From Tabrizicola oligotrophica (GTDB lineage Bacteria > Pseudomonadota > Alphaproteobacteria > Rhodobacterales > Rhodobacteraceae): a DNA stretch of 64,000 nt. A model generated the notes under the pieces. It did not search any database and was not told where the DNA came from. It saw only the letters and a program-made list of their open reading frames with translations. The translations under genes and the position numbers were made by a program. Shown here in pieces: positions 20,198 through 35,921 of this stretch (the first letter of the stretch is position 1; every line of letters starts with the position of its first letter). The stretch is from assembly GCF_011008935.1 (NCBI RefSeq), contig NZ_JAAIVJ010000003.1:186001-250000 (forward strand), written 5' to 3'.

Positions 20198-20941
20198 TCA
20201 GATAAACTGCCGCCCGCCGTCGATCACCAGCGTCTGCCCGGTCATGTAGCCCGCGAGCGGCGAGGCCAGCATCAGCGCGCCGCCGACGATGTCTTCCACC
20301 TCGGCCGGCCGCTTCAGCGCCGCGCGGTCGATGCCATAGCTGCGGGCGTTCTCGATCAGGCCAAGGCTGGCCTCGGTCATGGTGAAGCCCGGCGCCAGCA
20401 CGTTCACCCGCACCCCGTCGGCGCCCATCTCCTTGGCCATGGTGCGGCTGAGGCCGATCACCGCGCCCTTGGAGGCGACATAATGCATCCATTGCGGCGA
20501 GCCGGAGAACACCGTGGCCGAGGCGATGTTGACGATCGCCCCTTTCGCGGCGCGCAGGGCGGGCGAGAAGGCCCGGCACATCTGCCAGACGCCTTTGACG
20601 TTGACCGCCATGACCCGGTCCCAGACCTCTTCGTCGAGATCCTCGAAATCGCGCCGCTCCAGCCCGCCATAGATCGCGGCGTTGTTCACCAGCACATCCA
20701 CCCCGCCCATCCGCGCCTGCGCCAGATCGGCCAGCGCGCGGCAACTCGCGGTGTCGGTCACATCGACCTGCGCGGCAAGCCCGCCGGTTGCGGCGGCGGT
20801 TTCCTCGCAGCCTGCAAGGTTCAGATCGCAGGCCAGCACCCGCGCCCCGGCCCCGGCGAAGGCCAGCGCGAAGGCGCGGCCAAGGCCCCCCGCTGCGCCG
20901 GAGACGACCACCCGTTTGCCCGACAGTCCCAGATCGGTCAT
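20198..20941 (-). CDS. SDR-family oxidoreductase
   Basis: A 247-residue classical SDR with VVVSGAAGGLGRAFALAF at residues 10-27, VNNAAIYGG, INIASATVF-type Ser region (IVNIASATVFS) and YVASKGAVIGLSRT as active site; ends LVIDGGRQFI. ATG overlaps the HD-protein stop (ATGA). It belongs to the P450 operon and would oxidise a hydroxylated intermediate. Cofactor preference and substrate are not readable. Confidence 0.87.
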   Translation of the reverse strand: MTDLGLSGKRVVVSGAAGGLGRAFALAFAGAGARVLACDLNLAGCEETAAATGGLAAQVDVTDTASCRALADLAQARMGGVDVLVNNAAIYGGLERRDFEDLDEEVWDRVMAVNVKGVWQMCRAFSPALRAAKGAIVNIASATVFSGSPQWMHYVASKGAVIGLSRTMAKEMGADGVRVNVLAPGFTMTEASLGLIENARSYGIDRAALKRPAEVEDIVGGALMLASPLAGYMTGQTLVIDGGRQFI

Positions 20942-21543
20942 GCGCCCGTCTCCATATATCGTGTCAGTTGCCGTTCCGCCCGCAGGCTGGCGGTGAACCC
21001 CTCGGCCATCGCCTTGCCCGGCGCCGTCAGGAGCCGCGGGTTCGACACCACCGTCACCATGTCGATGTAGTCGGCCAGCGACCAGTCATACCAGCCGCGG
21101 ATGATCCGCATGCCATGCGGCGTGGTGCGCCAGCCCTTGTCGGCATCCTTCATCACCGCATCGTTCAAGGACCGCGCCTCGGTCGTGGTGTCGTGCCCGT
21201 CGATGATGGCAAGGATTTCGTCGACCCGGCCCAGACCGTGCCGCGTCAGGATCTCCCGCGCGATGACGACCGAATGGCGTTCGTGTTCAAACACCAGATC
21301 GCGCCGCGTCGGGTTGCGGCCGATGGCGGCCAGCAGAAGATCGGGCGGGATACGCTTCCAGCCGACGTCATGCAGCAGGATCGCCGGCAGCACCACATCG
21401 GCCTCGGCCTCGGGCAGGGCGGCGAGCAGCGCCCTGGCGACGCCGTAGGCGACCAGCGTGTGTTCGTCATTGTTGCGCACGTCAAGGAAGGGCCGGGCCT
21501 CGTGCCACAGCACCTCGTCCTGCGGGCGCAGAAGCGCGGTCAT
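20938..21543 (-). CDS. HD-domain protein 1 with six candidate metal ligands
   Basis: A 201-residue single-domain HD protein. His28, His58-Asp59 (LLHDVGW), His87 (FEHER), His117 (IDGHD) and Asp135 (KDADKGW) form an H...HD...H...H...D set that fits a dinuclear centre. This pattern is known both from phosphohydrolases and from mixed-valent diiron oxygenases (PhnZ, myo-inositol oxygenase), which cannot be told apart by eye. It is a paralogue of the HD protein at 22986-23582, with all six positions conserved. ATG overlaps the aldehyde dehydrogenase stop; the next SDR overlaps its own stop. Confidence 0.82.
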   Translation of the reverse strand: MTALLRPQDEVLWHEARPFLDVRNNDEHTLVAYGVARALLAALPEAEADVVLPAILLHDVGWKRIPPDLLLAAIGRNPTRRDLVFEHERHSVVIAREILTRHGLGRVDEILAIIDGHDTTTEARSLNDAVMKDADKGWRTTPHGMRIIRGWYDWSLADYIDMVTVVSNPRLLTAPGKAMAEGFTASLRAERQLTRYMETGA

Positions 21544-22976
21544 CGCGGCACCTCGTAACTCAGATACATGGTCTTGTATTCCAGATAGCTTTCCACCCCG
21601 TAGCGCCCCTTCTCGCGCCCCAGCCCGCTTTCCTTGACGCCGCCGAAGGGTTCGTAATGCGAGGAGCGCTGGATGTCGTTCAGCCAGACCGACCCGGCCT
21701 CCATCCCTTCGCAGAGCGTCAGGCCGCGGGCGAGATCGCGGGTAAAGACGAAGCCGGCGAGGCCATAGCGGTTGTCATTGGCGAATTTCAAGCCCTGCCA
21801 GGGGTCATCGACCGGGCAGATCCCCAGCACCGGGCCGAAGGTTTCCTCGGTCAGCACCAGCATCTCATGGCTCGCATCGGCCACCAGTGTCGGCTGATAG
21901 TAGAAGCCGCCGTCAAAGCCGGGCCCGGTCTGGCGCTGGCCGCCGCAGAGGATGCGGGCGCCCTTGGCGCGGGCGTCGTCGACCTGAACGGCGCTGTTTG
22001 CATAGATCTTCTCGTTGACCAGCGGGCCAAGGTCGCCCTCGCCGCCGGCGGGCGCGAGGGTGAACTGCCGCACCCGCGCCAGCAGCTTTTCAAGGAAGGC
22101 CTCATAGACCGGGCGCTCGACATAGATCCGGTTCACCCGGTAGCAGAACTGGCCGGAATTGGCGAAGCCGTGGCGGGCAATCGCCTCGGCCGCCTTGTCG
22201 ATGTCGGCATCGGCACAGACGATGGCCGCCGACTGGCCGCCCAGCTCCAGCGTCACGCGTTTCATGGTCTGCACCGCGGCGGCGGCAATCGCCTTGCCCG
22301 CCGTGGTGCCGCCGGTGAAGGCGATTTTCCGCGGGACCGGATGGTTGACCAGCGCCTCGCCAATCGCCCGGCCCGCGCCGGTGACGACGTTGAACACGCC
22401 CTTCGGCAGCCCCGCCTTGTGGAACAGCTCGGCCAGAAGAAGCGTCGAGGTCGGCGTGTCGGCCGAGGGCTTGGCGACGACGGTGCAGCCCGCCACCAGC
22501 GCGGCGCCGAGTTTGAACATCAGCAGGTTCAGCGGATAGTTGAACGGCGTGATCGCCACCACCACCCCGACCGGATCGCGGGTGACGACGGTTTTCTCGC
22601 CGGGGCCGCCCGAGGTCATGGCGGCGTGCAGCCGCAGGCCTTCCTCGGCGTAGATGTCAAGAAGGTCGGCAGCGCGGTTCACCTCTTGCAGACATGCGGG
22701 CAGCGGGCGGCCAAGCTCGCGGTGCAGCGCGGTGCCGATGGTTTGGCCGGCGTCGCGCATCGCCTGCGCCAGTTTCTTTTGCAGGCGCACCCGGTCCGCC
22801 ATGGGGGTCTTGCGCCACAGCTCGAACGCGGCGGCGGCAGAGCGGATGGCGAGGTCGGCATCCTGCGCATTGCCCTGCGGCACGGTGTCGAACTGGGCGC
22901 CCGAGCGCGGATCGGTCACGGGTTGCGTGGCGCCGGTGACCGAAGCCGTCCAGGCCCCGTTGATGAACATCTCCAT
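21540..22976 (-). CDS. NAD(P)-dependent aldehyde dehydrogenase
   Basis: A 478-residue ALDH. Seen: VVVAITPFNYPLNLLMFKLGAALVAGC near residue 135, the glycine motif FTGGTTAGKAI, catalytic Glu in TLELGGQSAA, catalytic Cys in NSGQFCYRVNRIYV, and EETFGPVLGI. Closest in feel to succinate-semialdehyde/benzaldehyde/vanillin-type dehydrogenases. Nine bases after the second HD gene and overlapping the first HD gene, so it is in the P450 operon and should oxidise an aldehyde produced in that pathway. Confidence 0.92.
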   Translation of the reverse strand: MEMFINGAWTASVTGATQPVTDPRSGAQFDTVPQGNAQDADLAIRSAAAAFELWRKTPMADRVRLQKKLAQAMRDAGQTIGTALHRELGRPLPACLQEVNRAADLLDIYAEEGLRLHAAMTSGGPGEKTVVTRDPVGVVVAITPFNYPLNLLMFKLGAALVAGCTVVAKPSADTPTSTLLLAELFHKAGLPKGVFNVVTGAGRAIGEALVNHPVPRKIAFTGGTTAGKAIAAAAVQTMKRVTLELGGQSAAIVCADADIDKAAEAIARHGFANSGQFCYRVNRIYVERPVYEAFLEKLLARVRQFTLAPAGGEGDLGPLVNEKIYANSAVQVDDARAKGARILCGGQRQTGPGFDGGFYYQPTLVADASHEMLVLTEETFGPVLGICPVDDPWQGLKFANDNRYGLAGFVFTRDLARGLTLCEGMEAGSVWLNDIQRSSHYEPFGGVKESGLGREKGRYGVESYLEYKTMYLSYEVPR

Positions 22977-22985
22977 GGCCCGCTC

Positions 22986-23582
22986 CTACAGCACATGCAC
23001 TTTCAGCGCCTTGCGGGTTTCCGCCAGCGCCGCCGTGGCCATGGCCCGGCCCGGCTCGGTTTCGAATTTCGGCAGGATCTTCTCGTTGCGCCGGCAGTTC
23101 TCGGCCGGTGTCTCGCCGAACCAGTCGCAGCCCACCGCCGTGCCCGTCACCTCGTAGCGCCAGAGCTTGTCACTGTCGCGGACGATGCGGTCGTTGAGAT
23201 GGCGCGGTTCTGGCCGCGTGTCATGGCCGTCGATGATCTCGCAGACCTGCGCGATGATGTCTTCGCTCCAGCCGGTCGCGCGCAGCACCTCGGTGCCCAG
23301 CCGCACGCCCTCGGCCTCGTGCCGGTAGCGCACATCGGATTGCAGGATGTTTTCCGACCGGAAGCCTTCGGAAATGATGGTCTCCATGTCGATCGCCCAC
23401 CAGCCGATGTCGTGCAAGAGGATCGCCAGCAGGCAGACGTCGCGGTCGGCCTGCGGGAAATGCTCCAGAAGCCGGACGCACCAGTCGAAGGACAGGGGGA
23501 TATGCACATCGTTCTTGCGAGCGCGCATGTAGGGTTCGGCGGCACGCCAGACCGGGTCATAGCGCGAGAGGTCGAGGCTCAT
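22986..23582 (-). CDS. HD-domain protein 2, paralogue with six candidate metal ligands
   Basis: A 198-residue HD protein. The ligand set is His27, His57-Asp58 (LLHDIGW), His88 (YRHEA), His120 (IDGHD) and Asp138 (RDSDKLWR). It aligns over most of its length with HD protein 1 (shared LLHD-GW, -IIDGHDT, R-LND, D-DK-WR). Both copies keep the complete set, so neither looks degenerate; a heterodimer or two sequential steps are possible. The ATG at 23582 is chosen because upstream codons run into the phosphotransferase gene. Not recognised as a named enzyme. Confidence 0.82.
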   Translation of the reverse strand: MSLDLSRYDPVWRAAEPYMRARKNDVHIPLSFDWCVRLLEHFPQADRDVCLLAILLHDIGWWAIDMETIISEGFRSENILQSDVRYRHEAEGVRLGTEVLRATGWSEDIIAQVCEIIDGHDTRPEPRHLNDRIVRDSDKLWRYEVTGTAVGCDWFGETPAENCRRNEKILPKFETEPGRAMATAALAETRKALKVHVL

Positions 23583-23617
23583 GGCAAGGGTCCAACAGGT
23601 TGCGGGAAAGGCGGCCC

Positions 23618-25505: not shown

Positions 25506-26570
25506 CTAGCGCTTGACGGTCAAGGCAGAGTTCAGCGTGCCGACGATCCCCATAATGCCGGTTGCATAGGTCTTTTTCGGGGTTTCGGCCTTCTTCTGAC
25601 TCCAGATGGTTTCGGGGCGCGATTGCAGCGCCAGAAGGTTTTCGCCTTCGGGCAGATCGGCATCTATCGCCCATTCCACGTCTTGCGGGCATTTGTTCTG
25701 CCGCTCCAGCCGCTTGGCCAGCGCGGCCACGGCGACCACCTCGGCGTCAGACAGGCACTGGATGCGGCGGCGGTCTTCGGGCACCTCGCGCTCCACCGCC
25801 TCGCCGCGGACGGCATCGCCCACCAGCTCGACATGCTTGTCGGAAATCTTGCGGTTGGTGATTTCCATCAGCACCTTTTCAACGGTGAAGTTGTCCGGCG
25901 TCACCACGCCCGAGACCACCATCTCGCCAAGGCCCCAGGAAGCGTCGATCACGATCTTCGTCTGGTCGCCGTTCACCGGGTCGATCGACATCACCACCCC
26001 GGCGGCGCGGGCGTTGACCATCTTCTGCACGCCGACGCTCATCAGCACGTCAATATGCGGGATGCGGTTCTTTTCACGGTAGGCCACGGCGCGGGTGGTA
26101 TAAAGCGAGGCCCAGCAATCGCGGACTTTTTCCACCACCTGATCGGCGCCGCGCACCCAGAGGTAGGTGTCCTGCTGGCCGGCAAAGGAGGCGTCCGGCA
26201 GATCCTCGGCCGTGGCCGAGGAGCGCACGGCGACCGGCATGTCGGCGCCCATCTGGGCATAGGCGGTGCGGATCGCCGTCTCGACCGCCGGCGGCAGCTT
26301 GTGGCTGCGGATGCGGATGCGGATCGCCTGCGCAGCGCGGTCGACCTGATCAATGTCGAAGGGGTCGACCCCCGCGAGATGTCGTTCGATCTCGGCGCGC
26401 ATGTCGTGATGGGCCAGCATCGCCTGATAGGCATCGGTCGTCACCGCAAAGCCTGGTGGCACGGCCACGCCGGCCTGCGTCATCTCGCCAAGGCTGGCGC
26501 ATTTGCCGCCGACGCGGGCAAAATCGGCTTGGCTGATGCGGGAAAAATCCAGCGTGAAAAGATCGGTCAT
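25506..26570 (-). CDS. ATP-grasp (PEP/pyruvate-binding domain) subunit of the split phosphotransferase
   Basis: A 354-residue protein equal to the N-terminal nucleotide-binding domain of PEP synthase/PPDK. Seen: VGGKCASLGEMTQAGVAVPPGFAVTTDAY (residues 20-48), MPVAVRSSATAEDLPDASFAGQQDTY (111-136), GVQKMVNARAAGVVMS and a C-terminal LLALQSRPETIW. It ends soon after, so it has no His domain; that domain is the next gene. This is the 40-kDa/70-kDa split known from phenylphosphate synthase. ATG 26570 overlaps the P450 stop by four bases; a longer frame upstream is P450 shadow. Confidence 0.85.
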   Translation of the reverse strand: MTDLFTLDFSRISQADFARVGGKCASLGEMTQAGVAVPPGFAVTTDAYQAMLAHHDMRAEIERHLAGVDPFDIDQVDRAAQAIRIRIRSHKLPPAVETAIRTAYAQMGADMPVAVRSSATAEDLPDASFAGQQDTYLWVRGADQVVEKVRDCWASLYTTRAVAYREKNRIPHIDVLMSVGVQKMVNARAAGVVMSIDPVNGDQTKIVIDASWGLGEMVVSGVVTPDNFTVEKVLMEITNRKISDKHVELVGDAVRGEAVEREVPEDRRRIQCLSDAEVVAVAALAKRLERQNKCPQDVEWAIDADLPEGENLLALQSRPETIWSQKKAETPKKTYATGIMGIVGTLNSALTVKR

Positions 26571-27823
26571 TTCCCCACCTCTGCTTTCCCCGTCTCCACC
26601 ATGACCGATTGCGGCACGCGGAAGCCGAGGTTGCGATGATATTGCGCCTCGAACCCGTCGACGAGCTTCATGTCGGGGAAGCGTTCGGGAAGCTGCCGGA
26701 ACAGTTCGGTGGCCTCCATCTTGGCCAACTGGAAGCCAAGGCAATAGTGGATGCCATAGCCGAACGACAGATGCGTGCGGGCGTTGGGGCGCGTCAGGTC
26801 CAGCTTTTCGCCGTCGGGGAACTGCGCCTCATCGCGGTTGGCAGAGCCGGTAATCATCAGGATTTCCGCGCCTTCCGGCAGGTCCACCCCGCCCACCGTG
26901 GCGGCATGGCGGGCCTTCCGGCGCCAGCCGACAACCGAAGGCGTGAAGCGCAGCATTTCTTCCACCGCATTGGGGATCAGCGCAGGGTCGGCCTTGAGCT
27001 GATCCCAGGCGTCGCGGTGCTGCATGATGGTCAGCACATAGTTGCCCATGAAGGTCGAGGTCGTCTCGTGGCCCGCAAAGAGCGTGGAGTAGAGGACGCC
27101 GGCGATTTCCTCGTCGGTGATCTCGGCCCCTTCGGCCTGCAGGCGCAGCAGGTCGGATGGAAAGTCGTCGCCCGGATTGGCGCGGCGCATGTCCAGAAGG
27201 TCGTGGATGTATTTCCAATAGGCCACCATGTCATGGGCAACCTCGACCTGTTCCTCGTCGGTCAATTCGCCCCAGGTCATCTTGCCGCGCGAGGCGCCAT
27301 ATTGCTTGATCTTCGGCACATCCGCGTCGGGAATGCCCATCAGGGTGAACAGCACATAGGCCGGCACCGGATAGGCCACCACCTCCCAGAAGTTGACCGG
27401 ACCGTTCGCGCCCTTAGCCTCCAGCTCGTCGAGATGCCGGCGCACGATGCCTTCGATCTGCGGCTGGATCGACTTGAACCGGCGCGGGCCGAAACAGGAC
27501 TGCGCCACCTTGCGGATGCGGGTGTGATCGGGGGGGACGCGGGCGGTCAGGCCGGAATAGGCGGTAAAGCCGCCGTCGGTCAGAACCTTGCGGCCCGCCT
27601 CGCACATCGCCCGCACCGGCTTTTGCGCGTTTTCGGAACTGAAGGTCTTGTAGTCGTCAAAGATCGCCTTGATGTCCTCATAGCGCGTCACGACCCAGTA
27701 GTTGGTCGGCTCGTGAAAGAAGATCGGTTCCTCCTTGCGAAGCTCGGCCCATCGGGCATGGGGTTTGTTCAGATCGAACGGGTCAAAGCCGTCAGACGGC
27801 GCGGCGCCTGCGTGGTCCTTCAT
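26567..27823 (-). CDS. Cytochrome P450 (bacterial class I, soluble)
   Basis: A 418-residue P450. The I-helix oxygen-binding motif is LFAGHETTS near residue 246, ExxR is in AVEEMLRFTPSVVGWRRKA context further on, and the haem motif is SFGYGIHYCLG with the Cys ligand at about residue 361. No membrane anchor, so cytosolic and ferredoxin-driven. A GGGAGGA site precedes the ATG. First gene of an eight-gene operon, 126 bases after the regulator gene and 82 bases downstream of CCAAAG direct repeats. It probably hydroxylates the imported hydrophobic substrate; CYP family not assigned by eye. Confidence 0.93.
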   Translation of the reverse strand: MKDHAGAAPSDGFDPFDLNKPHARWAELRKEEPIFFHEPTNYWVVTRYEDIKAIFDDYKTFSSENAQKPVRAMCEAGRKVLTDGGFTAYSGLTARVPPDHTRIRKVAQSCFGPRRFKSIQPQIEGIVRRHLDELEAKGANGPVNFWEVVAYPVPAYVLFTLMGIPDADVPKIKQYGASRGKMTWGELTDEEQVEVAHDMVAYWKYIHDLLDMRRANPGDDFPSDLLRLQAEGAEITDEEIAGVLYSTLFAGHETTSTFMGNYVLTIMQHRDAWDQLKADPALIPNAVEEMLRFTPSVVGWRRKARHAATVGGVDLPEGAEILMITGSANRDEAQFPDGEKLDLTRPNARTHLSFGYGIHYCLGFQLAKMEATELFRQLPERFPDMKLVDGFEAQYHRNLGFRVPQSVMVETGKAEVGK

Positions 27824-27880: not shown

Positions 27881-27922
27881 TTGAGAATCAGCCTAAGTCC
27901 GGTGGCTTTGGTTTTTCTTTGG
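27881..27922 (-). promoter_or_regulatory. P450 operon promoter/operator with CCAAAG direct repeats
   Basis: Read on the - strand: CCAAAGAAAAACCAAAG, nine bases, then TTAGGCTGATTC. The two CCAAAG units start 11 bp apart, one helical turn, the spacing used by SARP-type activators. The same element occurs ahead of the GMC gene (29441-29474). It ends about 58 bases before the P450 start. SARP binding is inferred. Confidence 0.7.
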
Positions 27923-27948: not shown

Positions 27949-29394
27949 TCAACCCGCTTTGGAAAGCTCGCGGTAAAGCGATTTGATTTCAAGCCCTTCG
28001 CTGGCGCCGATCGCCTCCAGCGCCGCGCGGTATTGCCGGTATTGCCGGTGCATGGCATCCAGCCGGCCCTGCGCGACGAAGATCTTCATCGCCTCGGCGT
28101 TGGCGCCTTCGCTGGCCGGGTCGATGCTGAGCGCCTTCTGACAATGCGCCAGCGCCTCGCGGGTGCGGCCCGAGGACATGCAGACCTTGGAGAAGTCGTA
28201 TTGCAGCTTCACCGCCATTTCACGCAGCCAGATCCGGCGCGGCATGCACCAGTCGTCGGTTTCGGACCGCACATATTCCAGCGGCAAATCTTCAAACAAA
28301 TCGCCCCCATAAAGCTGGTCGGCCGCGGCATAGACCCGCAACGCCGCATTCAACTCGCCCCGCTTGTAGAGCGACAGGCCGCGGCGGCAGAGCTGCTCGA
28401 AGGTGTCGATGTCGATCCAGCTTCCGGGCGGGGCGCTCAGCCGGTAGGTCTCGCCCACCCGCTCCACCGCGCCCGGTTCGCCCAGCGTCTTGCGCAGCAT
28501 GGCGACGGTGTGGTGCAGCCGGGTGCGCTTCACCTCCTCCGATTCGCCCTCGGGCCAGAGGAGTTCGCCAAGCTGGTCGGCATGGGCGCCCTTGTCACCG
28601 CTTTGCAGCAGATAGGCGAACAGCGTCCGGGTCTTTTTCGGCGCGCCGCCGGGAAGCTGCCAGTTCACTTCCTGCCCTCCGATGAAGACCTTCAGCCGGC
28701 CAAGGCAATGCACATGCCAGCGCGCCGCCTTGGCCGGGTTGCCAAGCCCGGCGCGCGGCGGGGCAAGCCAGGACGGCGTCGCGCCGCGGGCAAACATCTG
28801 GCCCTGCTGGCGGCGGGCCAGAAGCCCGGTATAATCGGGCACCACCCGGCCCAGCATGAAGGAAAGCTGTTCATCCAGCGCGCCGCCTTCCAGCAGGCTG
28901 GCGGGAATCCAGTAGGGGTTTTCGTAAAGTCCCGAGGGCGCGAGGAATTGCCGGTGCGCGCGCAGCGCGGCCTGAATCTGCTCCTCGATCGTCAGGTCCT
29001 GATTGTAGAGCGAGATCACCGGCAGGTCGAAATGCGCCGCCAGCCGGTCGGCCACGCCGCCCCAGTTCTCCAGCCCGGTGACGCCTTGCAGGTTGCCGAC
29101 GACCCAGCCCATGTCGACCACCAGCGCGGCGATGCCGCGGGCCTTTTCCAGCTCTTGCCGCAGCCGCACAAAGGCCTCTTCCGGGTCCATCGGCGAATGG
29201 TCCAGCCCGGCTTGATCGAAGCTGATCCGCCGCGCGGCGGGCATGTCCGGCAAGAGCCGCAAATCGTCGCTGACCAGCCAGGTCTTGCCGGGGCTGGCCA
29301 TCAGCGCCAGCGCCTTGGCGACAAAGCCGGCCACCGCGAAATCGGCGATCAGCGCGGCATTGATGCGTTCGTCAGGTTTGGGTTTGCGGGCCAT
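27949..29394 (-). CDS. MEDS-like sensory domain fused to a SARP/BTAD transcriptional activator
   Basis: A 481-residue regulator. Residues about 10-195 resemble the MEDS/DcmR sensory domain (GKTWLVSDDLRLLP, DMGWVVGNLQGVTGLENWGG, LPVISLYNQDLTIEEQIQAALRAHRQFL, GLYENPYWIP). Residues about 225-330 form an OmpR-like SARP winged helix (HCLGRLKVFIGGQEVNW, RTLFAYLLQSGDKGAHADQLGELLWPE, TRLHHTVAMLRKTLGE). The rest is a BTAD TPR domain ending in YRQYRAALEAIGASEGLEIKSLYRELSKAG. Start at 29394 follows an A/G-rich site; 29436 would add 14 residues. It lies between the P450 operon and the divergent GMC gene and likely activates both. Confidence 0.85.
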   Translation of the reverse strand: MARKPKPDERINAALIADFAVAGFVAKALALMASPGKTWLVSDDLRLLPDMPAARRISFDQAGLDHSPMDPEEAFVRLRQELEKARGIAALVVDMGWVVGNLQGVTGLENWGGVADRLAAHFDLPVISLYNQDLTIEEQIQAALRAHRQFLAPSGLYENPYWIPASLLEGGALDEQLSFMLGRVVPDYTGLLARRQQGQMFARGATPSWLAPPRAGLGNPAKAARWHVHCLGRLKVFIGGQEVNWQLPGGAPKKTRTLFAYLLQSGDKGAHADQLGELLWPEGESEEVKRTRLHHTVAMLRKTLGEPGAVERVGETYRLSAPPGSWIDIDTFEQLCRRGLSLYKRGELNAALRVYAAADQLYGGDLFEDLPLEYVRSETDDWCMPRRIWLREMAVKLQYDFSKVCMSSGRTREALAHCQKALSIDPASEGANAEAMKIFVAQGRLDAMHRQYRQYRAALEAIGASEGLEIKSLYRELSKAG

Positions 29395-29440
29395 GGGTTC
29401 TCTTTCTTTGGGAAAACTATAGTCGGTGACCGGCAAATGT

Positions 29441-29474
29441 CCAAAGAAAATCCAAAGATAACCCGTTAAGCTGA
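29441..29474 (+). promoter_or_regulatory. GMC/liv promoter element, twin of the P450 element
   Basis: CCAAAGAAAATCCAAAG (29441-29457), eight bases, then TTAAGCTGATTC (29466-29477). The repeats again start 11 bp apart and point in the direction of the GMC gene. It matches the P450 element (27881-27922) over nearly the whole length, which argues for common control. Confidence 0.7.
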
Positions 29475-29616
29475 TTCGCAGGAGACCCCGGAAAACCGGG
29501 GCTGGGAGGTTCTGACGGAAAGCATGGGTCCGGCGTTTGCCGGGGCGCTGGCCTTGTGCGGCCAGTGCAGGGATGCCCCATGGCCGCAGCCTCTGGAACA
29601 GGAGTTGGCGCGGCGC

Positions 29617-31200
29617 ATGTCGGTTGAGGGTTCGTTCGATTACGTCATCGTCGGCGCCGGGTCATCCGGGGCGGTGCTGGCCAATCGGCTGTCGGCCGAT
29701 CCGCGCGTCTCGGTCTGCCTGATCGAGGCCGGACCGGCCGACCGCAGCCCGTTCATCACCGTGCCGCTGGGCGTGATGAAGCTGTCGAAGGATGCCCGGC
29801 TGAACTGGCTTTACACCTCGGCGCCGCAGGTGGCGCTGGACGGGCGCGAGGTGTCGATCCCGCGCGGCAAGGTGCTGGGCGGCTCCTCGGCGATCAATGG
29901 CATGATCTACATCCGCGGTCACCGGGCCGATTATGACGGCTGGGCGGCGGCGGGCTGCACTGGCTGGGGCTATGACGAGGTGCTGCCGTTCTTCCGCCGT
30001 TCCGAGGACAACCGCCGCGACGGCATCGACCCGCAGCATCACGGCCGGGGTGGCGAGCTGGCGGTGTCGGACCTGCGCGACGCGAACCCGGTGGACCGCG
30101 ATTTCATCGCGGCGGCGGAGCAGTTGCAGTTCCGCCCCTGCCCGGATTTCAACGTGGCCGAGCCCGAGGGCATGGGCATCTATCAGGTGACGCAGGCAGC
30201 GGGCAAACGCCATTCCACCGCCCGCGCCTTCCTTGCCCCGATCAAGGCGAGGGCGAACCTGCACATCCTGACCGGGGCCGAGGTTCTGGGTCTGGTGCTG
30301 GCGGGCAAACGCGCCACGGGCGTGACGCTGCGCCGGGCCGGGCAGACTGAAACCGTCACCGCCCGAGGCGAGGTGATCCTGTCCGCGGGGGCCATCGGCT
30401 CGCCCGACATTCTTTTGCGCTCGGGGATCGGGGGCGGGCTGGCGCATGACCTGCCGGGCGTCGGCCAGAACCTGCAGGATCATGTCGACTGCATGGTGAT
30501 CTGCCAGAGCCGCTCGCGCACGCCCTATGGCATCTCGGTCGCCGCCCTGCCGCGGCTGGCGCTGGAGGGCGCGCGCTGGGTGTTCGGCAACCGCGGGATG
30601 CTGGCCTCGAACATGGTCGAGGCCGGGGGCTTTGTCCGCACCTCGCCGGCCGAGCCGCGCCCCGACATCCAGTTTCACATCATTCCGGGGCGCAAGAGCC
30701 ACCGGGGCCGGATGGTGGAATATGGCCACGGGGTTTCGGTGCATACCTGCGTGCTGCGCCCCGACAGCCGGGGCTCGGTGACACGCGGCGGCGCGGACGG
30801 GCCGCCCCGCATCGACCTTGGCCTTTTGACCGATGACCGGGACATGCAACGGCTGCTGAAGGGTGTGCGCCTTGCCCGCCAGATCCTGCGCCAAGGGCCG
30901 ATGGCCCGCCATGGCCTGACCGAGATCATCCCCGGCGACAATGTGGAAAGCGAGGCGGAACTGCGCGCCTATATCCGCGCCAATGCCCGCACCGTCTATC
31001 ACCCGGTCGGCACCTGCGCGATGGGCACCGGCCCGATGGCCGTCACCGATCCGCGCCTGCGCGTCCACGGCCTGCAGGGGCTGCGCGTGGTCGATGCCTC
31101 GATCATGCCGACCATCGTGTCGGGCAACACCAACGCCCCCGCCATCATGATCGCCGAGAAAGCCGCCGAGATGATCCTTGAGGATCGCAGGACCGCCTGA
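29617..31200 (+). CDS. GMC-family FAD alcohol dehydrogenase/oxidoreductase
   Basis: A 527-residue glucose-methanol-choline oxidoreductase. The FAD motif is FDYVIVGAGSSGAVLANRLS at residues 7-26, then GKVLGGSSAINGMIYIRGHRADYD (GMC signature 1), SAGAIGSPDILLRSGIG (signature 2) and the active-site HPVGTCAMG with GLRVVDASIMPTIVSGNTNAPAIMIAEKAA. Most like alkanol/choline dehydrogenases (AlkJ, BetA). An upstream ATG at 29524 would add 31 unlikely residues. Lies ahead of the transporter genes and shares the promoter element of the P450 operon; it probably oxidises the incoming alcohol or a hydroxylated intermediate. Confidence 0.9.
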   Translation: MSVEGSFDYVIVGAGSSGAVLANRLSADPRVSVCLIEAGPADRSPFITVPLGVMKLSKDARLNWLYTSAPQVALDGREVSIPRGKVLGGSSAINGMIYIRGHRADYDGWAAAGCTGWGYDEVLPFFRRSEDNRRDGIDPQHHGRGGELAVSDLRDANPVDRDFIAAAEQLQFRPCPDFNVAEPEGMGIYQVTQAAGKRHSTARAFLAPIKARANLHILTGAEVLGLVLAGKRATGVTLRRAGQTETVTARGEVILSAGAIGSPDILLRSGIGGGLAHDLPGVGQNLQDHVDCMVICQSRSRTPYGISVAALPRLALEGARWVFGNRGMLASNMVEAGGFVRTSPAEPRPDIQFHIIPGRKSHRGRMVEYGHGVSVHTCVLRPDSRGSVTRGGADGPPRIDLGLLTDDRDMQRLLKGVRLARQILRQGPMARHGLTEIIPGDNVESEAELRAYIRANARTVYHPVGTCAMGTGPMAVTDPRLRVHGLQGLRVVDASIMPTIVSGNTNAPAIMIAEKAAEMILEDRRTA

Positions 31201-31256: not shown

Positions 31257-32510
31257 ATGAAACTGAGAAACGGACTGGCCGGGGCCTTTGCCCTTGGCCT
31301 CGGCATGATCGCGGGGGCCGCCTTTGCCGCGCCCTCCTGCGGCGCCAACACCGGGCAGGCCGCGACCGGCGCGCCGATCATCGTCGGGGGCATCTTCTCG
31401 AACGGGGCGCCGGGGGACTGGTCGTCATCGACCGATGCGGCGGCGGCCTATTTCGCCTGCGTCAACGCCAATGGCGGCATTGGCGGGCGGCCGATCGAAT
31501 ATCATGTCGAAGATGACCAATGGAACCCCGAAGCCGCGGCGGCCGCGGCCGCCAAGCTGGTGAATGACCAGAAGGCCGTGGCGATGGTCGGCAACGGCTC
31601 GTTCACCGAAATGGCAGTGAATGCGCAGACTTATGTCGATCAGGGCATCATGGCGATGGCCTCGGCCTGCGCGATTTCGGAATGTTTCGAGACGCCGAAC
31701 CTTGTCTCCACCAACCAGGGCCCGCTCGCCTCGAACCTGGGCGCGGCGCAATATGCGCAGGAGGAACTTGGGTCGAAGAATGTCGCCTGCATCGGGCTGA
31801 ACATCCCGAACAACGGCATCTGGTCGTGCCAGGCGGTCATCGACTACATGACGTCGAAAGGCGGCACCGGCAGCATGGCCATGCTGAACCCCGGCGCGCC
31901 GGATGTGAACTCGGCGCTTCTGGAGGCGGTGGCCTCGGGGGCCGACACCATCCTGATGAACCTGCCCGCCGGGCTGGCGCTGGCCGTGCTGAAGGCGGCG
32001 CAGGAACAGGACCTGCGCGATGCCTACACTTGGATCGCGCCGACGCCGCTTTACGACCTGTCGGTGCCGGATGCCGTGGGCGAATACTGGCACGGCAAGA
32101 TCTGGGTCAACGCCGAGCTGGCGCCGATCAATCAGGGCGGGCCGGATGGGCAGAACTGGCTGGCGGTGCTGGACGCCTTCGGCAAGGCCGACGATCCGCG
32201 CGACACCTTCAGCCAGGCCGGCTATCTGTCGGCGCAGTTCTTCGTGAAGGCGCTGCTGGAGATGGACCCGGCGGGCCTTGATGACCGCGCCGCGGTGACC
32301 GCCGCAATCAAGGGCATCAAGGGTTATACCTCGGATCTGATGTGCGGTCCCTACTATGTCGGCGACGCGGCTTTCCACCAGCCGAACCACGCGGGCCAGA
32401 TGGTCAAGGTCGTGGCAGGTGGGTTCGAAGTGGTGCGCCCCTGCTATGAATATGACAGCGCCTATTTCGACCGCCACAAGGAGGTTGAAAAGGCTCTTGG
32501 CCTGAACTGA
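31257..32510 (+). CDS. Liv-type ABC transporter substrate-binding protein
   Basis: A 417-residue periplasmic-binding-fold protein with a signal peptide (MKLRNGLAGAFALGLGMIAGAAFA, cleavage before APSCG). Family features: IIVGGIFSNGAPGD, AAYFACVNANGGIGGRPIEYHVEDDQWNPEAAAAAAAKLVNDQKAVAMVG. Cysteines near residue 28 and in SACAISECFE are unusual for the family. GGGAGGA precedes the ATG. This HAAT family binds amino acids but also many aromatic and hydrophobic acids; ligand here unknown, probably the pathway substrate. Confidence 0.88.
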   Translation: MKLRNGLAGAFALGLGMIAGAAFAAPSCGANTGQAATGAPIIVGGIFSNGAPGDWSSSTDAAAAYFACVNANGGIGGRPIEYHVEDDQWNPEAAAAAAAKLVNDQKAVAMVGNGSFTEMAVNAQTYVDQGIMAMASACAISECFETPNLVSTNQGPLASNLGAAQYAQEELGSKNVACIGLNIPNNGIWSCQAVIDYMTSKGGTGSMAMLNPGAPDVNSALLEAVASGADTILMNLPAGLALAVLKAAQEQDLRDAYTWIAPTPLYDLSVPDAVGEYWHGKIWVNAELAPINQGGPDGQNWLAVLDAFGKADDPRDTFSQAGYLSAQFFVKALLEMDPAGLDDRAAVTAAIKGIKGYTSDLMCGPYYVGDAAFHQPNHAGQMVKVVAGGFEVVRPCYEYDSAYFDRHKEVEKALGLN

Positions 32511-32518
32511 GCCAACTG

Positions 32519-32550
32519 CCCCCGGCCCGCAATCCGGGCCGGGGGTCTTT
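32519..32550 (+). terminator. Terminator-like attenuator after the binding-protein gene
   Basis: Perfect 11-bp arms CCCCCGGCCCG (32519-32529) and CGGGCCGGGGG (32535-32545) with a five-base loop, followed by TCTTT. It lies between the binding-protein stop and the permease ribosome site. It probably lowers expression of the membrane and ATPase genes relative to the binding protein. Confidence 0.75.
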
Positions 32551-32565
32551 GCAAGAGGGGCAAGG

Positions 32566-33522
32566 ATGACGCGCGGCGCAATGGTGAACTGGCTGGTCTA
32601 TGCCGCCCTGATGGCGGGCATCTGGCTTTGGCTGGCGGGCGGCATGCCCTTCAAGGTGACGGGGATGTTTCTGGCCTCGGGGCTGGCCATCGGCTCGCTT
32701 TATGCGCTGGGCGGCATCGGCATGGTGGTGCTGTATCGCGCCTCGGGCGTGCTGAACTTTTCCGCCGGCGCGGCGGGTGCGGCCGGGGCGATGACCGCAT
32801 GGCAACTGGGGCAATGGGGGGTCTGGCCGCCGCTGGCCTGGGCCGGTTGCATCGGTGTCGCGCTGGCGCTGACGCTGACCTATGGCCGCTATCTCGCGCC
32901 GCTTCTGGCATGGCGCGAGACCGTGGTGAAGGCGGTGGCGACGCTGGGCTTTGCGCTGATCATCCTCGGGCTTGTCAGCTTTATCTGGATCGACGATCCC
33001 CGCAGTCTGGAACTGCCCACCGACCAGATCGGCATCGTGCTGTTTGGCCTGCGCGTCACTGCGACCCGGCTCCTGGCCTTTGCTGCCGCCATTGGCATTG
33101 TCGTCGGCATCTGGGCCTTTCTGGGTCGCACCGAGATTGGCCTGCAGATGCGCGCCGTTGCCAATGCGCGCGACCTGTCCGCGCTTCTCGGCATTCCCAT
33201 TCGCCGGGTGGAGACCATCGCCTGGGGCATCTCGGGCCTCCTGGCCGGCTTCACCGGGCTGATGTTCGCCAACCTGATCCGGCTGGAGCCGGTGGTCATC
33301 ACCTTCATGGTCATTCCCTCGATCGCCGCTGCGCTGGCGGGCCGGCTGAACAGCCTTGCCCTCGTGCTGGTCGGGGGGCTTTCCATGGGAGTCATCGAAA
33401 GCCTGCTGACGCTGTCGCCCACCCTGAAGGGCGTCCGCCCCATCGCCCCCTTCGTCATCGCCGCCCTTGTGCTTCTGTGGTCGCAGCGCGGCACGAAACT
33501 CACCTTCGGAGGGCGCGACTGA
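32566..33522 (+). CDS. Branched-chain-type ABC permease (LivH-like)
   Basis: A 318-residue inner-membrane permease with about eight hydrophobic segments. LivH-family features are ASGLAIGSLYALGGIGMVVLYRASGVLNFSAGA near residues 36-68, RTEIGLQMRAVANARDLSALLGIPIRRVETIAWGISGLLAGFTGLMFA and the C-terminal GGLSMGVIESL. Follows the attenuator hairpin; its TGA overlaps the next ATG by one base. Confidence 0.9.
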   Translation: MTRGAMVNWLVYAALMAGIWLWLAGGMPFKVTGMFLASGLAIGSLYALGGIGMVVLYRASGVLNFSAGAAGAAGAMTAWQLGQWGVWPPLAWAGCIGVALALTLTYGRYLAPLLAWRETVVKAVATLGFALIILGLVSFIWIDDPRSLELPTDQIGIVLFGLRVTATRLLAFAAAIGIVVGIWAFLGRTEIGLQMRAVANARDLSALLGIPIRRVETIAWGISGLLAGFTGLMFANLIRLEPVVITFMVIPSIAAALAGRLNSLALVLVGGLSMGVIESLLTLSPTLKGVRPIAPFVIAALVLLWSQRGTKLTFGGRD

Positions 33523-34508
33523 TGGACCGTTCGCTGTTCCGCCTTACCGCTTCGGGTGCCTCGGGCCTGAGCTTTGCGGCGCTGTGCTTTGTCTTTCTGC
33601 CGATGCTGGCCGGCTCTTACTGGCTGTCGATCTTCACCTCGGCGGCGATCTTCGCCATGGCGATTTCGGGCGTTGCGTTCATGTATGCCCGTCTTGGCAT
33701 GGTCAGCCTGACGCAAGTCGGGCTGATGGGGCTTGGCGGCTGGGTCACGCTGCGGCTGAACCACCTCTGGGACCTGCCCTTCGAGGTGAACATGGTGCTG
33801 GCCGCCCTTGCCACCATGATCTGCGGCTGGGTGCTGGCGCTGCCGGCGCTGAGGATGCGCGGGCTTTATCTAGCGCTGGTCACGCTGATGGCCGCCGGGG
33901 GGCTGGAGATCCTGTTCGCCACCTACCAGTTCCCGAACGGCGGGACAGGGTTCTGGGGCGTCAAGATCGGCTCCACCGCGCCCTTCCGTCGCCCGGCGCT
34001 GGCGCAGTCGCCCGAGGCCTATCTGCGCTACTGCATCGCCATTGCCACGCTGGGCTTTCTGTTCATCGAAGCCCATCGCCGGCTGTTTCCCGGCCGCGCC
34101 TGGGCGCTGATCCGCCGGTCCGAGGCCGCCGCCATGGCCGCCGGTGTCAACGTGACGCTCTACAAGACCTGGGCCTTCGGCATCGCCGGCGCGATTGCCG
34201 GAGCGGCGGGCGCGCTGCTGGCGGGGAGCCTTGGGCTTCTTGATGACGGCACCTTCCGGTCGTCGGAATCGATCATGCTCTTTGCGCTGGCGGTGGTCGG
34301 CGGGGCGCGGTTCTGGCTGGGCGCGGTGATCGCCGCCGTGCTGTTCCGGGTGCTGCCAGGGCTTCTGAACACCTGGGGCGTCGATACCGATCTGGCCTTC
34401 GTGATCTTCGGCGCGGGGCTGTTGCACGCGCTCATCACCGCGCCGAACGGCATTGCCGGGCAGGTCCATGACCTTGTGGCCAAAGTGCGGGGCAAGCGCC
34501 ATGATTGA
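33522..34508 (+). CDS. Branched-chain-type ABC permease (LivM-like)
   Basis: A 328-residue membrane protein of the LivM family: AISGVAFMYARLGMVSLTQVGLMGLGGWVTLRL, LALPALRMRGLYLALVTLMAAGGLEILF, ALIRRSEAAAMAAGVNVTLYKTWAFGIAGAIAGAAGALLAG and the C-terminal VGGARFWLGAVIAAVLFRVLPGLL. Starts within the LivH stop and overlaps the ATPase gene by eight bases. Confidence 0.9.
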   Translation: MDRSLFRLTASGASGLSFAALCFVFLPMLAGSYWLSIFTSAAIFAMAISGVAFMYARLGMVSLTQVGLMGLGGWVTLRLNHLWDLPFEVNMVLAALATMICGWVLALPALRMRGLYLALVTLMAAGGLEILFATYQFPNGGTGFWGVKIGSTAPFRRPALAQSPEAYLRYCIAIATLGFLFIEAHRRLFPGRAWALIRRSEAAAMAAGVNVTLYKTWAFGIAGAIAGAAGALLAGSLGLLDDGTFRSSESIMLFALAVVGGARFWLGAVIAAVLFRVLPGLLNTWGVDTDLAFVIFGAGLLHALITAPNGIAGQVHDLVAKVRGKRHD

Positions 34509-35220
34509 GATCGACGCCGTCACCGTCCGCTTTGGCGGGCTTGTCGCCCTGAACGAGGTCTCCGCCCGCCTGACCGCGCCGGTCGCCGGGATCATCGGGC
34601 CGAACGGGGCGGGCAAGACCACGCTGATGAATGTGGTCTCGGGCTTCATCACCGCGAAATCGGGGCGGGTGCTGGTCGAGGGGCAGGACTTTCTTCGCCT
34701 CGCGCCGCACCGGCGGGCGCAAGGTGGGCTGCGCCGGTCGTTCCAAAAGGAACAGATCGCCGATGATCTGACGGTTCTGGAAAATGTGCTGGTTCAGACC
34801 GACTGGTCGCTGACCAACGCGCGCGCCAAACGGGCCGAAGCGATGGAGATGCTGGCGGTGGTGGGCCTTGCGGACCGCGCCCACAAGATCGGAGCGGCGC
34901 TTTCGGGCTTTGAACGCCGCCTCACCGACGTCGCGCGCTGCATGGCGGGCAGGCCCCGGCTCATCATGTTCGACGAACCGGCAGGCGGGCTTTCGGTGGA
35001 GGAAACCCGGCAACTCGGCGATCTTGTTCTGCAAATTCACGGGCTGACCGGGGCGCAGACCGTCATCATCGACCATGATGTCGAGCTGATCAGCCGCATC
35101 TGCGCCGAAACACTCGTGCTGGATTTCGGCCGCCGCATCGCCTTTGGCCCGACCGCCGAAGTGCTGGCCGATCCGAAGGTGAAAGCCGCCTATCTGGGCA
35201 CCGAGGAGGGGATGCAATGA
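34501..35220 (+). CDS. Branched-chain-type ABC ATPase (LivG-like)
   Basis: A 239-residue ATPase with Walker A GIIGPNGAGKTTL (about residues 28-40), Q-loop RRSFQKEQIADDLTVLENVL and Walker B RLIMFDEPAGGLS; switch His in IIDHDVELI. The ABC signature is ALSGFERRLTDVARCM instead of the usual L-x-Y-G-Q/LSGGQ, a notable divergence. ATG 34501 overlaps the LivM end; TGA overlaps LivF ATG. Confidence 0.9.
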   Translation: MIEIDAVTVRFGGLVALNEVSARLTAPVAGIIGPNGAGKTTLMNVVSGFITAKSGRVLVEGQDFLRLAPHRRAQGGLRRSFQKEQIADDLTVLENVLVQTDWSLTNARAKRAEAMEMLAVVGLADRAHKIGAALSGFERRLTDVARCMAGRPRLIMFDEPAGGLSVEETRQLGDLVLQIHGLTGAQTVIIDHDVELISRICAETLVLDFGRRIAFGPTAEVLADPKVKAAYLGTEEGMQ

Positions 35221-35921
35221 CACTGGTGGTCACAGGGCTGGTGGTGCAGGACGGAAACCGAACGGCGGTTCACAATGTCGACCTGACGGTGGAGCCGGGC
35301 AAGGTCACCGCTGTCATCGGCGCCAACGGGGCGGGCAAGTCGGAACTGGTGCTGGCGCTGGCGGGCGTGCTGCCCGTCACCGGCGGCGAGGTGCGGCTGG
35401 ACGGGGCGGCGCTGACCGGCAAGGGGCCGGAGGCCATCCGCCGCGCCGGCATCGCCGCCGTGCCCGAAGGCCACCGGGTGCTGACCGACCTGTCCATCGA
35501 CGACAACCTGCGCGCCGCCGGAAGCCTGATCCGGGGCGGGCTGGCCGAGCGGCTGGCGGAAACCTATGCGGTCTTTCCCGAACTGGCCGAGCGCAAGGCC
35601 CAGCTTGCCGGCACGCTCTCGGGTGGGCAGCAGCAGATGGTGGCGCTGGCCCATGCCCTGATGAGCCGGCCGCGCTTCCTTCTGATCGACGAAATGTCGC
35701 TGGGCCTTGCGCCGCTGATCGTCAAGCGGCTTCTGGGCGTGGTGACGGATCTCAAGGCCAGGGGCGTCGGCATCCTGTTGATCGAGCAGTTCACCGACCT
35801 TGCACTGGGCATTGCCGAAAGCGCCGTCGTGCTGCGCGGCGGCAAGATGCGCTATAACGGCCCGGCAAGCGCATTGGCCGAGGATTCCCGGCTGTTGCAC
35901 GAGGCCTATTTCGGGATCTGA
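35217..35921 (+). CDS. Branched-chain-type ABC ATPase (LivF-like)
   Basis: A 234-residue ATPase of the LivF family with Walker A VIGANGAGKSEL, VPEGHRVLTDLSIDDNLRAAG, canonical signature TLSGGQQQMVALAHALM, and Walker B RFLLIDEMSLGLAPLIVKRL. Completes the importer (binding protein, two permeases, two ATPases). Overlaps LivG by four bases. Confidence 0.92.
   Translation: MTLVVTGLVVQDGNRTAVHNVDLTVEPGKVTAVIGANGAGKSELVLALAGVLPVTGGEVRLDGAALTGKGPEAIRRAGIAAVPEGHRVLTDLSIDDNLRAAGSLIRGGLAERLAETYAVFPELAERKAQLAGTLSGGQQQMVALAHALMSRPRFLLIDEMSLGLAPLIVKRLLGVVTDLKARGVGILLIEQFTDLALGIAESAVVLRGGKMRYNGPASALAEDSRLLHEAYFGI

Follow-up and report, generated by a model that had tools for sequence, protein, structure and literature searches.

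A candidate SARP-type activator with an N-terminal MEDS-like domain and its putative operators at a catabolic locus of Tabrizicola oligotrophica

The regulator locus

The window analyzed here is a 64,000-nucleotide stretch of the Tabrizicola oligotrophica genome (contig NZ_JAAIVJ010000003.1, positions 186,001 to 250,000). A regulatory gene on the minus strand starts at an ATG at 29394 and ends with a stop at 27949. The gene is single copy; that is, no second copy was found in its own genome. On either side of it lies a short direct repeat, box 1 (CCAAAGAAAAACCAAAG) or box 2 (CCAAAGAAAATCCAAAG). Box 1 faces a string of genes on the same strand, beginning with a cytochrome P450 gene, and box 2 faces a divergent operon for a GMC oxidoreductase and an ABC transporter (Table 1). 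Placement of the regulator in a catabolic island, as originally predicted, is borne out by the Pfam annotations of these neighbors.

In the ORF listing, the PPDK_N reading frame opens with a TTG that falls within the P450 gene. Because the Pfam match begins at residue 77, the true start is probably near 26570.

Table 1. Features at the regulator locus, in window coordinates.
Feature	Position	Strand	Basis
MEDS-like/SARP fusion regulator, 481 aa	27949..29394	-	ORF; Pfam BTAD and MEDS; 13-member alignment
MEDS-like domain, about residues 9-190, KaiC/RecA-like fold without Walker A	28825..29370	-	AlphaFold; Pfam; hhalign
OmpR-type winged-helix DNA-binding part, about residues 224-320	28435..28725	-	AfsR/EmbR superposition over 224-481; Trans_reg_C weak, E 0.03
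BTAD domain, residues 327-477	27964..28416	-	Pfam E 1.3e-14
Candidate operator box 1, towards P450 operon	27906..27922	-	Exact match
TAGGCT, -10-like hexamer 10 bp after box 1	27890..27895	-	Read from sequence
Candidate operator box 2, towards GMC/transporter operon	29441..29457	+	Exact match
TAAGCT, -10-like hexamer 9 bp after box 2	29467..29472	+	Read from sequence
Candidate sigma-70-like promoter of the regulator, TGGACA-16-TATAGT	29416..29443	-	Consensus scan, 10/12 matches
Cytochrome P450, first gene after box 1	26567..27823	-	Pfam p450
PPDK_N (ATP-grasp) kinase subunit	25506..26744	-	Pfam PPDK_N E 1e-112
PEP-utiliser (swivel) kinase subunit, 603 aa	23651..25462	-	Pfam PEP-utilizers; NCBIfam PRK08296 subfamily over cut-off
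HD-domain protein 1 (ORF reaches 23843)	22986..23600	-	Pfam HD E 9.9e-8
Aldehyde dehydrogenase	21540..22976	-	Pfam Aldedh E 8.5e-150
HD-domain protein 2	20938..21543	-	Pfam HD E 1.7e-7
Short-chain dehydrogenase	20198..20941	-	Pfam adh_short_C2 E 2.2e-57
GMC oxidoreductase, first gene after box 2	29524..31200	+	Pfam GMC_oxred_N/C
Branched-chain-type ABC transporter (binding protein, two permeases, two ATPases)	31257..35921	+	Pfam

The two halves of the regulator

The C-terminal half is a complete SARP unit, i.e., an OmpR-type winged helix followed by a BTAD domain. The BTAD match scores 55.2 bits against a Pfam cut-off of 22.1 and is found in all 13 aligned relatives; the weak Trans_reg_C match to the winged helix that precedes it falls under its cut-off. 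An AlphaFold model of the regulator was built from the 13-member alignment (mean pLDDT 79.5). In this model, residues 224-481 superpose on Streptomyces AfsR (8k60; Z 20.3, rmsd 2.8, 243 residues) and on mycobacterial EmbR (2fez; Z 19.8, rmsd 2.3, 243 residues), and the next structural matches are TPR proteins at Z 13 or less. EmbR was also picked by a profile search of PDB sequences (E 0.0026).

The N-terminal half is a MEDS-like domain with an inactive KaiC-type fold. The Pfam MEDS family (PF14417) matches residues 56-148 of the full-length protein at E 7.2e-5 and 23.1 bits, and matches the N-terminal 195 residues scanned alone at E 5.8e-5 and 23.4 bits; both scores are below the curated cut-off of 29.8. 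When the N-terminal halves of the aligned proteins were scanned alone, 12 of the 13 matched MEDS at E of 1 or less, and MEDS was the only Pfam family found there besides one chance match in one member. Alignment with hhalign to a profile of 12 canonical MEDS domains, taken from the phylum, gave a probability of 93.5% (E 2.3e-7) that applies to residues 64-148 only. HMM searches assigned no other fold to residues 1-200. The fusion of a MEDS-like sensor to a SARP/BTAD activator, predicted originally from the sequence, is thus upheld by the BTAD match, the AfsR and EmbR superpositions, the MEDS match, and the hhalign result.

The 12 canonical domains share the invariant residues H2, F78, R103, E125, C141, and Y143. 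The regulator keeps only Y143, as Y130. Other residues stand at F78, R103, E125, and C141; H2 is not covered by the alignment, and by eye nothing in the regulator corresponds to it. We write MEDS-like rather than MEDS domain because the score is below the cut-off and most of the canonical invariants are replaced. Stretches that are strongly conserved in the alignment include VDMxW, WG, SLYN, and HRQFLAPSG.

Folded alone, residues 1-195 give an AlphaFold model with pLDDT 87.3 and pTM 0.85. Its best structural match is 2ekd (Z 10.7, rmsd 3.7, 150 residues), and it bears a moderate similarity, at Z of about 9, to KaiC, Rad51, and FlaH. A sensor of the Walker A/ATPase kind was ruled out, as the G/A....GK[S/T] motif is absent from 13 of 13 members. 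A domain census, in the portion available, lists MEDS as an inactive form of KaiC, "MEDS (iKaiC)" (PMC5847659).

Distribution of the regulator

The regulator is conserved on four MAG contigs labeled Rhodobacteraceae, at 67-90% identity, and in nine further genomes of the family, at 43-66% identity. Among 295 family genomes, 11 match the regulator, and 10 of these, including its own, encode MEDS-like/SARP fusions. The eleventh, G064, encodes a PAS-SARP protein that is similar in the C-terminal half alone. The fourteen regulator loci thus assembled should not be taken as fourteen proven independent species, because the MAG contigs may duplicate species already represented among the genomes. The 13-member alignment includes L013 translated from a TTG, about 30 residues shorter than its ATG reading frame, and omits L014, the start of which is unclear, and L015, a weakly matching PAS-SARP that is a different protein.

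A wide spread of MEDS-SARP proteins through the class was considered and rejected: only the own genome matched over the full length among 385 class genomes, and 12 others matched in the SARP half only.

Candidate operators and promoter geometry

The sequence CTTTGG-N5-CTTTGG was seen to recur beside the regulator gene in relatives. Read on the other strand, the box is CCAAAGAAAA(A/T)CCAAAG, that is, a CCAAAG direct repeat with an 11-bp period; the 11-bp repeat of box 2 was also recovered by a template-free search. The window holds exactly two matches, those flanking the regulator gene, with 0.15 expected at three mismatches or fewer. In the whole genome the box occurs twice at 0 mismatches, not at all at 1-2 mismatches, and nine times at 3. 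A wider regulon in this genome was dismissed, since the reversed control gave 7 such matches against the nine.

The P450-side box is present at 14 of 14 regulator loci and the regulator-upstream box at 10 of 14; these sites were picked by hand from lists of matches at two mismatches or fewer, with the spacer free and matches in coding regions dropped. A scan of the 19-19.5 kb stretches of nine relatives, with the spacer specified and no hand selection, gave 15 matches at two mismatches or fewer, and all 15 are P450-side, regulator-upstream, or monooxygenase-side sites. Within the stretches covered, the divergent GMC gene occurs at 10 of the 14 loci, nine of which have the regulator-upstream box. 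Of the four loci that lack the GMC gene there, one (L017) keeps an upstream box with 1 mismatch and without a TANNNT.

The tenth GMC locus is that of G153 (L019:8624-8890), where the GMC/transporter operon adjoins the regulator gene and its box is absent even at 6 mismatches. The operon may be uncoupled from the regulator in this genome because the box is missing.

A -10-like hexamer, TANNNT, starts 9 bp (14 sites) or 10 bp (9 sites) past the 3′ CCAAAG at 23 of 25 boxes, the exceptions being the L017 upstream box and the L024 P450-side box. With the downstream sequences shuffled (2000 rounds), such hexamers numbered 0.5 on average and never more than 4. SARP targets, according to the available part of PMC10936776, consist of direct repeats whose spacing is 11 or 22 bp, and the 3′ repeat stands 8 bp from the -10. 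In the AfsR box, which extends from -40 to -19, the upstream repeat lies over the -35. Taking TANNNT as the -10 would place the start of the present boxes near -38, nearly the position of the AfsR box. The distance of 9-10 bp to this putative -10 departs from the 8 bp of the SARP rule, unless the repeat is 7-8 bp long; counted as a 7-mer, it lies 8-9 bp from TANNNT. The regulator is predicted to bind the CCAAAG boxes, and the MEDS-like/SARP protein would act as an activator.

Box 2 and the -35 of the candidate promoter from which the regulator itself would be transcribed have 3 bp in common. Because of this overlap, occupancy of box 2 could damp expression of the regulator. Close to where the regulator gene starts there is also an inverted half-site (29403-29411); it was set aside, as it is absent upstream of L001 by eye.

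Co-inheritance of regulator, operator, and pathway

The exact box is found in 8 of the 295 family genomes. All eight are among the 10 that encode the fusion regulator, and none of the 285 genomes without this regulator has the exact box. The reversed-box control gave 0 of 295. The box-regulator association has a Fisher p of 3.5e-14, a value that treats related genomes as independent. The other two regulator genomes, G153 and G292, have boxes with 1 mismatch next to the regulator gene. The PEP-utiliser kinase subunit occurs in exactly the 10 regulator genomes of the 295 (p 8.5e-19, kinship ignored). Gene order is also conserved: the series regulator-P450-PPDK_N-PEP-utiliser-HD-ALDH-HD-SDR is kept at all 11 loci that are long enough to show it (L002, L004, and L016-L024). 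Direct sensing of the pathway's substrate or of a metabolite by the regulator, as originally suggested, would fit this joint inheritance of regulator, pathway, and operator, but the N-terminal domain keeps few of the conserved MEDS residues. The original reading had included neither the boxes nor the probable identity of the pathway.

The catabolic genes

Among PDB sequences, the P450 is nearest to 5xjn and 5gwe (about 425 bits), and the next P450 scores 251. Both entries are labeled just "Cytochrome P450"; we take them to be CreJ, the P450 of the Corynebacterium glutamicum 4-cresol route. In that route the phenol is phosphorylated, the methyl group is oxidized by the P450, an HD-type hydrolase removes the phosphate, and dehydrogenases then oxidize the product. 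The gene content of the Tabrizicola cluster, set beside this general picture of Cre biochemistry, resembles a phosphorylation route for 4-cresol. The kinase has its PPDK_N and PEP-utilizers subunits on separate genes. This split matches that of the two-part aromatic or phenol kinases HpeHI, CreHI, and PpsAB described in the available portions of PMC12167813 and PMC9618137. A search for solved structures by sequence found no match for HD proteins 1 and 2.

At every long locus the aldehyde dehydrogenase has an HD protein on either side. The two are paralogs, about 35% identical as judged from tblastn cross-matches in the relatives.

In G140, an operon for a phenol/toluene-type diiron monooxygenase lies upstream of the regulator gene (L023:10499-16975). 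It encodes Phenol_Hydrox monooxygenase components (E 1.8e-72 and 3.1e-45), a reductase, a ferredoxin, and an OmpW-type outer-membrane protein/porin. An extra exact box precedes this operon, with a TANNNT 10 bp on, about 6.7 kb from the regulator. Monooxygenases of the phenol/toluene type can make cresol from toluene. An aromatic effector would therefore fit, because the boxed enzyme is of a type that can yield cresol.

A cre-like cluster under a different regulator was sought and rejected. The kinase pair is present in two class-sample genomes (46-47% identity in the PEP-utiliser subunit), and the stretches covered there contain neither the P450, nor the regulator, nor the box. The pair at L067 adjoins an AraC-type gene, by eye.

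Proposed mechanism and alternatives

We propose that the fusion is a one-component SARP-type activator with an N-terminal MEDS-like sensor that controls a regulon for cresol or alkylphenol catabolism, and we put the probability of this reading at about 0.7. Starting from the computed domains, folds, boxes, promoter geometry, and co-inheritance, the following steps are envisioned. A small aromatic effector, such as 4-cresol, a related alkylphenol, or an aryl phosphate intermediate, would bind the N-terminal domain; the sensed ligand is most likely of the alkylphenol type or its phosphate. Binding would free or orient the SARP part, so that two SARP units could occupy CCAAAG-N5-CCAAAG next to each other, its upstream repeat taking the -35 position. 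The SARP units would then recruit RNA polymerase to promoters that offer only a weak TANNNT -10, switching on two operons: that of the P450, kinase, HD, ALDH, HD, and SDR genes, and that of the GMC oxidoreductase and ABC transporter. At box 2, the regulator may also lower its own transcription.

A more specific version of this proposal is offered tentatively, at slightly under even odds. It holds that a divergent, catalytically dead KaiC-type (MEDS-like) domain serves as an intramolecular, aromatic-ligand switch of a SARP activator. Rhodobacteraceae-type bacteria would then sense alkylphenols through a single protein that has a SARP-type operator to itself, and in one lineage this operator would have moved onto an upstream aromatic hydrocarbon monooxygenase. 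If so, SARP "sigma adaptation" would work with alphaproteobacterial RNA polymerase and control catabolism.

The pathway substrate might be another phenolic or an alcohol, e.g., a lignin-derived aryl ketone or a non-aromatic alcohol, in which case the effector would differ as well. The kinase family phosphorylates several phenols, and the branched-chain-type transporter and the GMC oxidoreductase fall outside the 4-cresol route as we understand it. We consider such a substrate unlikely, though a serious contender, given the gap between the P450's score to the presumed CreJ structures and its next match, the box before the aromatic monooxygenase operon of G140, and the different gene setting of the two class-sample kinase relatives. 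Somewhat less probable still is that the same SARP unit and boxes are at work while the N-terminal domain is an interaction or oligomerization module, or reads some other signal (a nucleotide, redox state, or a partner protein). The loss of most conserved MEDS residues and the KaiC/RecA-like fold without Walker A would agree with this. There are also precedents of a kind in the portions of two papers available to us: an additional NOD domain modulates the SARP of AfsR (PMC10936776), and the MEDS protein EtnR2 is proposed to act with a separate DNA-binding partner, EtnR1 (PMC8784404). Against it, the regulator gene lies within the pathway locus and shares the pathway's inheritance, the window genes scanned showed no second regulator alongside, and the conserved stretches of the N-terminal domain are preserved as strongly as a binding site would be.

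It is improbable, in our judgment, that the CCAAAG boxes serve another regulator or an alternative sigma factor and that the MEDS-SARP gene is merely their neighbor. The boxes do adjoin the gene, and physical linkage alone would link the two. Yet the 11-bp repeat and its spacing to the -10 are close to those of SARP sites, every one of the 285 regulator-free genomes lacks the exact box, and the G140 box stands well away from the regulator, before another operon.

Relation to known systems and novelty

The SARP unit belongs to a known family. Like AfsR and EmbR, the regulator has an OmpR-type winged helix and then a BTAD domain, superposable at Z of about 20, and its candidate operators resemble SARP sites in consisting of direct repeats with an 11-bp period that closely precede a -10-like hexamer. 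It differs from AfsR and EmbR in that its sensor is N-terminal, whereas theirs is C-terminal (NOD-TPR in AfsR, FHA in EmbR), and in its alphaproteobacterial host, catabolic targets, and CCAAAG repeat. To our knowledge, SARPs have been studied almost wholly as activators of antibiotic production, with a C-terminal sensor or none.

DcmR, EtnR2, and the M. crimeensis MEDS-HTH protein, as described in the source portions available, resemble the regulator in having a related sensor domain and in lying close to genes that deal with small organic or hydrocarbon compounds. MEDS proteins of other bacteria are reported to accompany alkene or epoxide genes (PMC8784404). In contrast to these proteins, the domain described here is divergent and below the Pfam cut-off, and it is fused to a SARP unit, whereas the others rely on a different HTH or on a partner protein encoded separately. 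Of the 12 canonical MEDS reading frames found, 10 were scanned, and no BTAD domain was seen in any of these.

With the cre genes of C. glutamicum the cluster shares a two-part kinase (CreHI in the parts consulted of PMC12167813 and PMC9618137). It differs from them in phylum, in its two HD proteins, in the added GMC oxidoreductase and ABC transporter, and in the MEDS-like/SARP regulator. Its P450 is nearest to the presumed CreJ entries, and its content of HD, aldehyde dehydrogenase, and alcohol dehydrogenase genes is one that we take the cre genes to have as well.

The pairing of MEDS and BTAD was not found in the literature searched; there, DcmR and "transcriptional activator domain" were not mentioned jointly, and no SARP with an 11 bp direct repeat was reported from Proteobacteria. 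Searches for cresol or alkylphenol work in Rhodobacteraceae or Roseobacter brought nothing relevant among the matches listed, and the cre gene names searched for are absent from PMC13101518. The combination of a MEDS-like domain with a SARP unit likewise did not turn up in the literature searched, nor did its operator or the catabolic regulon. The candidate operator, short and near-invariant, would predict the regulator's whole regulon genome by genome from sequence, and the regulator-operator pair is a candidate alkylphenol biosensor. The system also opens for study how a MEDS-like domain transmits ligand binding, whether the SARP promoter mechanism extends beyond Actinobacteria, and whether this clade uses the phosphorylation route to degrade cresols.

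The presence of a SARP protein in an alphaproteobacterium had been presented as unusual. It is less surprising than was stated, because 12 other class-sample genomes carry SARP-type proteins, mostly PAS-SARP among those scanned. The alphaproteobacterial PAS-SARP proteins, mostly about 410-450 aa, parallel the layout of an N-terminal sensor followed by SARP; they differ in that PAS replaces the MEDS-like domain, and similarity is confined to the SARP half. The CCAAAG box is absent from the PAS-SARP genome G064. Domain scans covered L015 and nine of the 15 further SARP-matching reading frames of the class sample: eight of the ten proteins have PAS before SARP, one has a cyclase after it, and one has TPRs after it. 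The PAS-SARP regulators (L015, L040-L042, L046, and L048-L050) are scattered through Alphaproteobacteria.
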